Positions 2,251 through 16,159 of a stretch of 64,000 bases of DNA are shown here, in pieces; positions within the stretch are counted from its first letter, which is position 1, and each line of letters opens with the position of its first letter. This DNA comes from Oerskovia merdavium (lineage in GTDB: Bacteria > Actinomycetota > Actinomycetes > Actinomycetales > Cellulomonadaceae). Made by a program: the position numbers and the translations under genes. The stretch lies in NCBI RefSeq assembly GCF_014836755.1, contig NZ_JACSQF010000003.1:109106-173105 (forward strand), given 5' to 3'. The notes below the pieces were generated by a model, which saw only the letters and a program-made list of their open reading frames with translations, made no database searches and had not been told where the DNA came from.

Positions 2251-3837
2251 TCACTCCCACTCGATGGTGCCCGGCGGCTTGCTCGTCACGTCGAGCACGA
2301 CGCGGTTGACGTCCTTGACCTCGTTCGTGATGCGCGTCGAGATGGTCGCGAGCACGTCGTACGGCAGGCGCGTCCAGTCCGCGGTCATGGCGTCCTCGGA
2401 GGACACGGGGCGCAGCACGATCGGGTGACCGTAGGTGCGGCCGTCGCCCTGGACGCCGACCGAGCGGACGTCGGCCAGGAGCACCACGGGGCACTGCCAG
2501 ATCTCGTCGTCCAGCCCCGCCTTGGTGAGCTCCTCGCGCGCGATCGCGTCCGCTGCGCGCAGGATCTCCAGGCGCTCGGCCGTGACCTCGCCGACGATGC
2601 GGATACCGAGCCCGGGACCGGGGAAGGGCTGACGGGCCACGATGACCTCGGGCACGCCGAGCTCGCGGCCCACGGCGCGGACCTCGTCCTTGAACAGGGC
2701 CCGCAGCGGCTCGACGAGCGAGAACTGCAGGTCGTCGGGCAGGCCGCCCACGTTGTGGTGGCTCTTGATGTTCGCGGTGCCCTCGCCGCCGCCGGACTCG
2801 ACGACGTCCGGGTACAGGGTGCCCTGCACGAGGAACTTGACCTCGGTGTCGTCGGAGTCGTGCTCCCGGCTCTCCCCGACGATGTCACGCGCAGCCTGCT
2901 CGAACGCGCGGATGAACTCGCGGCCGATGATCTTGCGCTTGGTCTCCGGGTCCGAGTGGCCCGCGAGCGCCGCGAGGAAGCGCTGCTTCTCGTCCATGAC
3001 GACGAGCTTGACGCCCGTGGCCGCGACGAAGTCGCGCTCGACCTGCTCGACCTCGCCCGCGCGCAGCAGGCCGTGGTCGACGAACACGCACGTGAGCTGG
3101 TCGCCCACGGCCTGCTGGACGAGGGCTGCTGCCACCGACGAGTCGACGCCTCCGGACAGGCCACAGATGACGCGCGCGTCGCCGACCTGCTCACGGATGA
3201 GCGCGACCTGCTCGGCGATGACGTTGCCGGGGGTCCAGTCGGGGGCGAGGCCCGCGCCCTCGTACAGGAAGCGTTCGAGCACGGCCTGGCCGTGCGCGGA
3301 GTGCTTCACCTCGGGGTGCCACTGCACGCCGTACAGGCGCCGGCTGGTGTCCTCGAAGGCCGCGACCGGGGAGCCGGACGACGTCGCGAGGACCTCGAAG
3401 CCCTCGGGCGCCGCGTGCACGGAGTCGCCGTGGCTCATCCACGTGGTCTGGTGGTCGGGGGTCTCGGCGAGCAGGACGCCCGCGGAGCACACCTCGACCT
3501 CGGTGCCGCCGTACTCGCTGAGGCCGGTCTGCGCGACCTTGCCGCCGAGCGCCTGGGCCATGGCCTGGAAGCCGTAGCAGATGCCGAGGACGGGCACGCC
3601 GGCCTCAAACAGCGCGGGGTCCACGAACGGGGCGCCCTGGGCGTACACGGACGACGGACCGCCGGACAGGATGATCGCTGCCGGGTCCTTGGCGAGCATC
3701 TGCTCGACGGTGAAGGTGTGAGGGACGATCTCCGAGTACACCTTGGCCTCACGCACGCGACGCGCGATCAGCTGGGCGTACTGTGCGCCGAAGTCGACGA
3801 CCAATACGGGCCGGGGGGCTGAGGGGGTGGGTGTCAC
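2251..3837 (-). CDS. guaA: GMP synthase (glutamine-hydrolysing)
   Basis: Converts XMP, glutamine and ATP to GMP, the last step of guanine nucleotide synthesis in the cytosol. The 528-residue protein has an N-terminal class I glutamine amidotransferase domain with Cys87 in GICYG and His174/Glu176 in WHPEVKH. An ATP pyrophosphatase domain follows with the PP-loop SGGVDSS at 228-234, then the C-terminal dimerisation domain. I chose the GTG at 3837 over upstream codons because TATCCT lies 6 nt before it (plus-strand 3844-3849), giving a leaderless mRNA. Its pathway partner guaB is about 30 kb away in the same orientation. Confidence 0.97.
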
Positions 3838-3905
3838 CACCCCAGGATAGTTGGCCCCCGGGCCCGTCACGTCATCCGTCCACCCAGGGCGGGCGGGGCC
3901 TGCGC

Positions 3906-4472
3906 TCAGGAGGACGCGAACGTGATCTCGACGCGCCGGTTCAGCGCCCGCCCGCCCGGGCTGTCCTGGCCGCCGACCGTGTTGTCCGCCACGGGTTCCC
4001 TGCTGCCGTACCCGGTGACCGTCAGCACCAGGTCCGGGCGCGCCGCGCGCAGGAGCGCGGCGACCGCATCCGCGCGCTGCTGCGACAACGGGTCGTTGAC
4101 GGTGTCGTCCCCCACGGAGTCGGTGTGACCGTCGACGGCCACGTCGGCTCCCTGAGGGATGGTCGCGACCAGGTCCGTGACCGCTGCGGCGGCCTGGGGC
4201 GACAGGTCTGCGGACGCGAAGGCGAAGAGCAGGTCGGACGTGAGGACCATCACGGTCTCGCCCTCCTCCTCGCGGACGGTCTCGAGGCCCGTCGTCGCGT
4301 CGTCGGGCCGCAGGTCGAACGTCGCGTCGGCGCTCATCTGCTCCGTCACCACGAGGTCGGGGACCGGCTCGGGCGAGACCGCCGCCGTGCTGGGCGACGT
4401 CGTGCCGAGGAGTCCGACCGTCACGGCCCCGACGACGGCCGTTCCGCGGAGGGTCTCTCGCAGGGTGCTCAC
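3906..4472 (-). CDS. OmpA-C domain exported protein
   Basis: A 188-residue protein with a hydrophobic N-terminal segment ending near TSPSTAA, consistent with a signal peptide. The C-terminal half is an OmpA/MotB-like peptidoglycan-binding domain: it contains [11 protein letters not shown] and an LSQQRADAV helix, the usual diaminopimelate-contacting region. It ends with [11 protein letters not shown], also typical. In a Gram-positive cell such proteins probably anchor to the cell wall rather than to an outer membrane. The GTG start is only 4 nt after the stop of the upstream lipoprotein gene, so the two are cotranscribed and likely act together. Confidence 0.85.
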
Positions 4473-12440: not shown

Positions 12441-14170
<1,730 letters not shown>

Positions 14171-14235
14171 CCGCACCTGTGCGCTGAGCCACCTCCCACC
14201 GCGAGGGCAGCTCACGACGCGTGCGCGCACCTCTC

Positions 14236-14264
14236 GGGGCGTGACCGGATCCCGGTCACGCCCC
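14236..14264. terminator. Hairpin terminator after the ABC exporter operon
   Basis: Perfect 13-bp stem (14236-14248/14252-14264) with a 3-nt loop, 65 nt after the exporter stop, followed by TCT. It should separate exporter transcription from the oxidase gene. Confidence 0.75.
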
Positions 14265-14465
14265 TCTGCACCTTCTGCGCGGCGGCCCGGCACGCCGGAC
14301 GTGGCGACAACGATTCAGGATCAGCGACCTGAGCACAGGGGTCGCCGCAAATATCGCAGGACACTGCGGGATATCAATCGTCCGGTCGTCGCCGCCATGA
14401 CCTGGCGAGCGCTGCTCGCGCCATGGAACCGGCCCGGTGATAGCGTGACCGCGGAGGTGGAATCA

Positions 14466-15938
14466 ATGGAACTGGTTTATCGAACCGGTGGAAACCACGT
14501 CGTCGTCAATCCGGCGCTTCTCGTGATCGCCTGCGATCCGCGCGAGCTCGAGCCGGTCATGGACTATACGCGCGAAGAGCGAGCGCTGCTGAATTCGCTC
14601 CGCAACTTCACCTTCTACACGACCTGTCTGCGAGTCTCTCCGCGCAGGGCGCAAGATCGGGTCGTCATCCTCGCTCCCGACATCGTCGAGTCCCAGACCG
14701 GCCTCGTGCAGGGGTATCGCAACGAGACGGCAAAACAGTGGGGCCTTCCCGCCGCGAACCGCGCCGCGACCAACGTCGTCACGATATACCAGATGGTAGG
14801 GATCAACGGCGAGTCGGATCCCGGCACCCTCGCCGCACAGCGAAAGGCATTCTTGGACGACCCTCCTTCGTGGTGGCCGTTCCGGCCCGGCCAGTACGAG
14901 ATCGTGCAGGTCGAAGAAAATCAGAACGGCGAGATCCACCAGGCCGTGAACCCGTTGCAGACGCCCTACTTCAACCAGTTCTTCTCCGGCGCGCTCGAAG
15001 CCGGGGCTCCGTGGCGATGGCTCGACATGCAGGGCGCGAACGACACGGTGTACGTCCACGCGTCGACGTGCTTCGAGTCTGTCCTGCACTGCTGGTCGTA
15101 TCTGAACATCCTGCTCGACGCCAAGCCCGCCCTGCTGTCGGCAGCCAAGGACAGCGCCATCGTCGTCATCGGTGCGGGAGTGAGCGGGTTGCTCTTCGCG
15201 CAGCGCTTCATCGACTCGGGCTTCACCAACATCACCCTGCTGGAGAAGACGAACAGGTTCGCCGGCAAGACGCATTCGTTGCAGGTGCCGGACCAGGGCG
15301 TCACCTCGATCGCCGAGCTCGGCACGTGCTACCTGTCGCCGGCGTACGACGAGATGGTGCAAGCGCTCTCCGAGTTCACCGTCGGCAACAAGCGCGTGGC
15401 CGTCGCGCACGGGACCGAACGAGGCATAGTCGTCGGCACGCCGCCGAACGAGACGGTCATGGCTTTCGGCGACTACGGACTCATGGTCGCGTGCCAGTAT
15501 CTCGGTTTCGGTTGGCCCTGCAGCAAGGTGGAGCAGGACCTCGCCTACGCCGAGCTGCTGGCCGCCGCCGCGATCTACGTCCGCCTGCGCTGGGAGATCT
15601 TCGGCACCGTCGACGGCGTCATGCCGGTCTCGAAGCCTGTCGGCGACCCGCACGGCATCTTTTCGAAGAGCTTCGCGCAATATCTTGACGACAACAAGAT
15701 GGGCGCGTTGAAGGGCTATCTGATGTACGCCTATCAGGTGCAGGGTTATGGCGATCTCGACAAGATCCCTGCGTACTACGGCCTCGTGTGGGTCATGCCG
15801 GACATGGCGCAACCTCTTGGCGAGTCGAGCGGCGTCACGGCCTGGCAGAAGGGCTGGGAAGACGTCTGGGATCAGATGGTCGAGAAGCGCAACATGAACA
15901 TCAAGCTGAACACGAGCGTGGTCAGCATCCGCCGCTGA
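14466..15938 (+). CDS. Flavin amine-oxidase-like protein with circularly permuted halves
   Basis: A 490-residue protein whose halves are in reverse of the normal order. Residues 1 to ~227 look like the C-terminal half of a flavin amine oxidase: ELVYRTGG, a strand VIACDPREL, and at 205-225 the FAD-closing ASTCFESVLHCWSYLNILL. Residues ~228-490 look like the N-terminal half: Rossmann loop VVIGAGVSGL (GAGVSG at 236-241), acidic ribose ligand in LLEK, ending in the strand IKLNTSVVSIRR, after which ELVYR would normally follow. ATG 14466 has a good ribosome site (GGAGG, 14453-14457), but the frame is open upstream to 14241 and the oxidase-like reading seems to begin near 14430. AT-richer codons (AAT, TAT, GAA, CTT) differ from neighbours. 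Substrate unknown. Confidence 0.75.
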   Translation: MELVYRTGGNHVVVNPALLVIACDPRELEPVMDYTREERALLNSLRNFTFYTTCLRVSPRRAQDRVVILAPDIVESQTGLVQGYRNETAKQWGLPAANRAATNVVTIYQMVGINGESDPGTLAAQRKAFLDDPPSWWPFRPGQYEIVQVEENQNGEIHQAVNPLQTPYFNQFFSGALEAGAPWRWLDMQGANDTVYVHASTCFESVLHCWSYLNILLDAKPALLSAAKDSAIVVIGAGVSGLLFAQRFIDSGFTNITLLEKTNRFAGKTHSLQVPDQGVTSIAELGTCYLSPAYDEMVQALSEFTVGNKRVAVAHGTERGIVVGTPPNETVMAFGDYGLMVACQYLGFGWPCSKVEQDLAYAELLAAAAIYVRLRWEIFGTVDGVMPVSKPVGDPHGIFSKSFAQYLDDNKMGALKGYLMYAYQVQGYGDLDKIPAYYGLVWVMPDMAQPLGESSGVTAWQKGWEDVWDQMVEKRNMNIKLNTSVVSIRR

Positions 15939-15989: not shown

Positions 15990-16073
15990 GGCATCACGGA
16001 GATCGGGCCGCACGATGAGCTCGCCGCTTCGGGGGAAGCTGCGCGCGGCTCTGGCGCGCCTGGCAGCAGGAGA
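15990..16073 (+). pseudogene. Decayed copy of the ABC exporter 3' end
   Basis: The plus strand reads GITEIGPHDELAASG, then after a one-base frame change ARLWRAWQQE. This matches the C-terminus of the intact exporter (RITEIGPHDEL ... ARLWKSWQQE, about 14086-14167). Synonymous changes (GAC to GAT, CGCC to GCTT) show it is not a fresh duplication. No homology to the exporter is evident upstream of about 15990. The fragment and the intact copy bracket the permuted oxidase. Confidence 0.8.
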
Positions 16074-16159
16074 AGTCGCCAACCCTCGGCACGGCAACCA
16101 GGTTCACAGCACTCCCGACGCCCCGCTCCCAGGCAATCCCCAGGAAACCCGGCAAGGCT

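Follow-up and report, generated by a model that had tools for sequence, protein, structure and literature searches.

The best solved match to the protein described here is the PDB entry 2b9w (424 aa, deposited under the name of a putative aminooxidase), which we take to be PAI, a polyunsaturated fatty acid isomerase. Its sister entry, 2BAB, has been tied to the isomerase (PMC6162330). Natural circular permutations are generally explained by tandem duplication, fusion, and acquisition of a new start and a new stop (PMC2213659), a route that is said in that paper to hold for adenine-N6 DNA methyltransferases. The saposin-like "swaposins" appear in its reference list, and this 2007 survey places FAD/NAD(P)-binding domains among the folds with non-sequential structure alignments, which are not necessarily circular permutations (PMC2213659). 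Another paper, citing Murzin 1998, mentions a flavin-binding domain of a different fold that is probably permuted (PMC13327496). Among the matches listed from the open-access literature, none described a flavoenzyme of the amine-oxidase type that is circularly permuted in nature; the original prediction likewise knew of no description of a permuted amine oxidase.

The locus studied lies in a window of 64,000 nucleotides from Oerskovia merdavium (the window being the whole stretch of DNA that was analysed). Its product is very probably a two-domain FAD oxidoreductase of the amine-oxidase superfamily that has undergone natural circular permutation, and within the superfamily it falls towards the PAI (2b9w) branch (Table 1). 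The two halves of the enzyme occur in swapped order, this order is conserved among copies in other genomes, both halves are under purifying selection, and the protein is colinear with conventional relatives after rotation. Swapped halves had been proposed at residues 1-227 and 228-490. The order stands, and the boundaries are redrawn as 1 to about 222 and about 230 to 490. As had also been proposed, a short linker joins the halves in frame and without a stop; nine copies lack internal stops.

The permuted gene is contained within an open frame at 14241-15938 (+), and the GTG at 14241 sits within a terminator-like inverted repeat. From the sequence, the ATG at 14466 is the likely start. This is 36 bases beyond the start at 14430 that was first proposed, which was too early: an ATG is present at the equivalent position in 9/9 copies, as is the TGA, and GGAGG is found 6 or 8 bases 5' of the ATG in seven of the nine (it is absent from L017 and L078). 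Because of this conserved ATG and the GGAGG before it, the upstream residues RPGDSVTAEVE are probably leader rather than protein. They had been read as the continuation of the last codons on rejoining; in our reading that place would be taken by MELVYRTGG..., the proposed hairpin partner of the new C terminus.

Table 1. Features of the permuted gene and its surroundings (positions are those of the window).
Feature	Positions	Strand	Basis or remark
Circularly permuted FAD oxidoreductase	14466..15938	+	490 aa plus stop; colinear copies
Probable Shine-Dalgarno sequence, GGAGG	14453..14457	+	8 bases between GGAGG and ATG 14466
Residues 1-222, equivalent of the C-terminal half of a conventional enzyme	14466..15131	+	Rotated-profile alignment; weak taken alone
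DTVYVHASTCFESV, residues 193-206, equivalent to the last FAD-domain strand and the beginning of the last helix, internal here	15042..15083	+	9/9 copies
Junction linker, about residues 222-230, from old C terminus to old N terminus	15129..15155	+	dN; KDS..I
Residues 232-490, equivalent of the N-terminal half, from the Rossmann FAD-binding fold onward	15159..15935	+	PF13450 (E 1e-6); 2b9w; profile alignment
GxGxxG dinucleotide-binding loop GAGVSG, residues 236-241	15171..15188	+	9/9 copies
New C terminus NIKLNTSVVSIRR, residues 478-490, paired in a hairpin with strand 2-7 in the conventional order	15897..15935	+	Joint alignment; strands in both models
Decayed repeat of the 3' end of the ABC-transporter-like gene upstream (original at 14085-14174)	15991..16079	+	77.8% over 90 bp

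A family-wide search identified the permuted gene in 9 of 221 genomes, spread over 4 of 25 genera (8/196 of the better genomes). The nine copies are that of the window, seven loci from genome_contigs (matched by contig coordinates) and G1177, which lies in a single-contig genome. The seven genome_contigs copies, all full length, are from Oerskovia enterophila (94% identity), Isoptericola (83% and 81%) and Cellulomonas (86, 82, 73 and 73%). The nine are distinct, come from separate genomes and are 72-99% identical to one another, so the swapped order is naturally conserved within the family. They encode proteins of 486-492 aa that all begin ME[LV] and end [IV]RR-stop. Eight can be aligned over their whole length, interrupted only by a short indel near residue 325; the ninth shares the same ends.

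No copy was seen as part of two tandem, complete oxidases; each has an ATG and a TGA of its own. For G1177, a 1965-aa open frame was considered as a longer protein with a second complete oxidase and was rejected. The gene is 490 aa with its own ATG and TGA, and the upstream part of the frame is merely open, opposite a minus-strand ORF.

The distribution is patchy. Within the genus Oerskovia, two of seven genomes carry the permuted gene. It is present as a single copy in the genome of the window, where no paralogue in conventional order was found beyond distant matches to the Rossmann region (best E 0.0099). Of 396 genomes sampled from the order, 7 matched at E 1e-5. Three of the matches are full length, all within the family, and in the other four genomes the match was limited to the Rossmann stretch or its vicinity. 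Taken alone, the first half matched one of 396 genomes of the phylum, its own, and the profile of the first half matched one of 345 genomes of the class, again only its own copy. Plasmid matches were confined to the Rossmann stretch and covered only 13-19% of the query. A phage or virus origin was also considered and rejected; phages gave no match, and 78 pattern matches in viral_contigs included no confirmed relative.

The original prediction had suggested that the two halves be searched separately. In the searches made, the second half matched PF13450 and 2b9w, and the first half matched no family. PF13450 (NAD(P)-binding Rossmann-like) covers residues 234-297 (29.4 bits vs a gathering threshold of 21.9) and is the sole Pfam match above its cut-off. 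The Rossmann loop, IVVIGAGVSGL, starts at residue 232 (15159), and Pfam and PDB matches together place the Rossmann FAD signature at residues 231-304. The match to 2b9w (E 1.4e-6) is remote and driven by the Rossmann segment. It aligns residues 225-301 with 2-74 of 2b9w and, weakly, residues 403-465 with 145-206; when the rejoined single sequence was compared with the PDB, 2b9w was still matched in the N-terminal half only. As the Rossmann match falls in mid-protein, the N-terminal signature of an FAD enzyme sits in the middle of the permuted enzyme, and it is preceded by the C-terminal-type FAD segment DTVYVHASTCFESV.

PF01593 (Amino_oxidase), presumably the Pfam family of flavin amine oxidases, gave no row up to E 1, in native or in rejoined order. 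Thus, "amine oxidase" is a label at the level of the superfamily only. In this sense the name first given to the protein holds, and as the name of a specific family it does not, the closest solved relative being the fatty-acid isomerase 2b9w. The first half (residues 1-226) has no Pfam or NCBIfam match up to E 1, and its comparison with the PDB returned only two chance entries (E 1.6 and 1.8). For this reason its identity was drawn from four conventional relatives.

These relatives are L029 (Nostoc), L030 (from the same phylum), L032 (Photobacterium) and L033 (Tolypothrix). The match of L030 to 2b9w covers both of its parts (E 8.9e-142), and therefore the set stands for the PAI branch. L031, L034 and L035, together with other FAD enzymes (L027, L028 and L008), were left out of the conventional-relative profile, L031 because the frame taken from it did not encode the enzyme. 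In Nostoc N6 (L035, 501-1806), a PAI-like enzyme is annotated as two adjacent CDS (an NAD(P)-binding protein and a hypothetical protein), possibly a split or frameshifted gene in the normal order. The profile of the permuted family comprises seven sequences; neither the profiles nor the dN/dS pairs include L016, which differs little from L015.

In its native order, the family profile aligned with the relatives only through residues 227-490, on their positions 2-256 (score 110.4). When rotated at column 215, 222 or 226, it aligned over 406-411 columns, to position 442-447 of 451, with scores of 128.1-128.8. A cut at 230 gave a score of 124.2. Cuts at 30-200 scored at most 118.1, their alignments ending by position 308 or earlier, and cuts at 240 and beyond scored <100. 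The rotated score of 128.5 compares with 109.8 for the second half alone.

The joint alignment locates the two ends of the cut. SVVSIRR followed by ELVYRTGG..NPALLVIACDP lies opposite DISKVERVD..GVVKITVNGEEHEFDKLIVTAP of the conventional order, and QGANDTVYVHASTCFESV lies opposite QGAYDTYYAGEIMSFGDM. The hairpin in the permuted enzyme is short of two to six turn residues in this alignment. The segment DTVYVHASTCFESV aligns with DTYYAGEIMSF, HTFYAGEILNF, NTYFANEMTAG and NTFYLGAAFQT of the four relatives. At the junction, the linker leads into KDSAIVVIGAG (compare KDSRIAIIGAG of 2b9w). The nine copies and the rotation test support the earlier proposal of a natural circular permutation with a short linker and a cut in the hairpin after ...SIRR.

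Structure prediction adds little. Two AlphaFold models (eight sequences) are of low confidence (mean pLDDT 49.1 and 49.9, pTM 0.43 and 0.49). Strands at residues 2-7, 10-14 and 484-489 are present in both. The better parts are residues 1-40, 221-260 and 481-490 and helices at about 341-380 and 401-420, at a confidence too low for proof; if the FAD domain is assembled from the two ends of the chain and the junction, the first three of these are expected to lie in it. Foldseek and VIA-align, which were run with the first of the two models, returned 0 hits at E 0.001 or better and no Z of 8 or more, respectively. In 17 of 50 VIA-align rows, residues 220-231 to 490 were placed on the N-terminal part of amine-oxidase-type FAD enzymes. 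The top row is a thioredoxin reductase (Z 5.9, rmsd 2.7, 78 aligned), and unrelated folds occur at similar Z, values that are common according to VIA-align's own notes.

In the arrangement that we propose, the old C terminus would be joined to the old N terminus through a linker of about 8-10 residues, and new termini would have opened in the hairpin between strands ...NIKLNTSVVSIRR and MELVYRTGG.... The usual structure would form, with the Rossmann FAD domain assembled from both ends of the chain and the junction region, and the substrate domain from the parts of the chain between the ends and the junction. The permutation would most likely have arisen when the gene was duplicated in tandem and the copies fused in frame, after which the first copy acquired a new start and the second a new stop. 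The permuted gene may then have spread horizontally as a lone gene.

A real permutation could also have come about by fission and refusion, with the two halves first existing as distinct genes in swapped order, instead of by tandem duplication; we consider this route possible but rather unlikely. Splitting may happen, given that the Nostoc relative is annotated as two adjacent CDS, though in normal order. No split form of the permuted family was seen in the searches made, nor was a tandem form or a close relative in conventional order. The KDS..I leader that has been kept is compatible with both routes.

It is improbable that the first half is a domain of other descent, joined to the front of an N-terminal fragment of an FAD enzyme and resembling the C-terminal half by chance. 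The missing family and PDB matches of the first half would fit such a fusion, as would its weak score when taken alone. Against the four relatives it scored 33.3, at positions 383-446 of 451 (the maximum of 200 shuffles was 29.6); with just three relatives as the reference, the score was 26.0 (E 0.0086), and hhalign assigned it a probability of only 4.7%. In a plain hmmsearch with the first-half profile, the four relatives ranked 1, 2, 5 and 20 among 2004 sequences (2000 of them shuffles). Against a chance likeness, the profile landed at the C terminus in three of the four, the best stretch in L030 being elsewhere. The gain on rotation is also unmatched in 150 controls in which the first half was shuffled column-wise and then rotated: their median score was 110.5, their maximum 121.8, and none reached 128.5, although 2/150 did reach template position 400. 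In addition, QGxx(D/H/N)T and two hydrophobic or aromatic residues after it are common to all relatives aligned, the second half ends where the first half begins in the conventional alignment, and an N-terminal half alone would not close the FAD site. With nine colinear copies and a rotation that beats all 150 shuffles, the swapped order is beyond chance. Rotation and shuffles together identify both halves as homologous to one conventional family, in swapped order, the first half being weak by itself.

In blastn comparisons, likeness between contexts is confined to the gene and 0-93 bases upstream and 0-31 bases downstream, except for a few matches of about 80-106 bp elsewhere. Flanks are shared only between the two Oerskovia genomes and between Cellulomonas L015 and L016. 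The G+C content of the gene is 63-65% in six of nine copies, vs 69-72% in the flanks. In L017 it is 68% vs 73%, and in L015 and L016 the gene (70%) is not below its flanks. The lower G+C content of the gene and its patchy presence point to horizontal transfer.

In the window, the permuted gene separates an ABC-transporter-like gene from a YceI-like region; the other five genomes of the genus do not carry it, and there the first is directly followed by the second (names by eye). The terminator-like inverted repeat at 14236-14264 stands after the ABC-transporter-like gene. L039, whose site is empty, has a similar repeat there, which places the insertion downstream of the repeat. The neighbours, named by eye, give no hint of function. 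For L018, there was no syntenic relative among 81 genomes beyond its own. Four relatives of L013 share only the stretch from about 300 bases past the stop, and the junction is not readable there. L013 also has an open frame at 2553-4037 beginning MSDLRESGCLTEDTKILRADTGAETTMGELF, which reads, we presume, like the start of an intein.

Some copies are flanked by direct repeats that consist of the last ~90-103 bp of the upstream gene. L012 has the same repeat pair as the window (86% over 103 bp). In L015 and L016 the last 103 bp of a lysozyme-like gene (by eye) are repeated at 95-96% identity (L015 5666-5768 and 7507-7609). Such repeats accompany 4/9 copies in 2/7 contexts, the two being unrelated, and none was found beside the permuted gene in L013, L014, L017, L018 and L078. 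It is conceivable, but improbable, that the gene is a minimal mobile unit that moves alone and that its insertion just behind a host gene, in two lineages, duplicated the end of that gene; its permutation would then be a by-product of a circular DNA intermediate.

Purifying selection is evident in both halves of the permuted enzyme, with dN below dS in 21/21 pairs (dN 0.02-0.18 vs dS 0.16-0.56 in the first half; dN 0.04-0.20 vs dS 0.21-0.45 in the second). Across the linker, dN was above that of both halves in 15 of 21 pairs, and above dS in five of these; the 14 codons compared overlap the halves by a few codons and the values are noisy. That the gene is an assembly or rearrangement artefact (an alternative raised in the original prediction) or a decaying pseudogene, as its single copy and patchy distribution might suggest, is contradicted by this selection and by the same order in nine separate genomes, 72-99% identical, one of them a single contig, with no internal stop, and can be dismissed.

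The permuted enzyme retains a GxGxxG loop, an acidic residue after the second strand, RxAGK and AELG in 9/9 copies, which we take to be the FAD-binding features of the N-terminal part. In the last FAD strand it has HAS (His-Ala-Ser), where the relatives have AGE (2/4), ANE (1/4) or LGA (1/4). Amine oxidases typically carry a lysine after the strand equivalent to VIACDP. In the joint alignment, Lys is absent from NFTFYTTCLRV, the stretch after this strand. We infer that the enzyme would bind FAD and catalyze a flavin redox reaction or an isomerisation on a substrate that is perhaps apolar. Given the aligned stretch without lysine and the failure to detect PF01593 in the restored order, we favour an FAD enzyme on the PAI side; "amine oxidase" is just the superfamily name, and amine oxidation is unsupported.

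The two-domain FAD fold of monoamine oxidases, the histone demethylase LSD1, amadoriases and PAI can thus very probably be re-cut in nature. The FAD site must then be formed by a chain whose two termini share one hairpin, and the permuted enzyme provides a natural guide to the sites at which such two-domain FAD enzymes may be re-cut. Permuted enzymes can be overlooked: here the first half is unmatched by Pfam and NCBIfam up to E 1.

Among described systems, PAI is the closest of known structure. Once rotated, the permuted family aligns nearly end to end with PAI-type relatives; PAI itself has the conventional order, in which the permuted enzyme has no end-to-end homology to it (residues 227-490 fall on 2-256). 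MAO, PAO, LSD1 and amadoriase have the Rossmann FAD signature (residues 231-304) in common with the permuted enzyme. Model residues 226-490 align weakly with amadoriase II 3-192 (Z 5.7, rmsd 2.0, 70 aligned), and residues 229-490 align weakly with MAO A 13-249 (Z 5.4, rmsd 7.2, 151 aligned). Unlike flavin amine oxidases, the permuted enzyme has its halves in swapped order, gives no PF01593 match and has no Lys in NFTFYTTCLRV. Swaposins and adenine-N6 DNA methyltransferases are natural permutations as well, and split-barrel flavin reductases (compared with the flavin domain of ferredoxin reductase) probably are, all in other folds.
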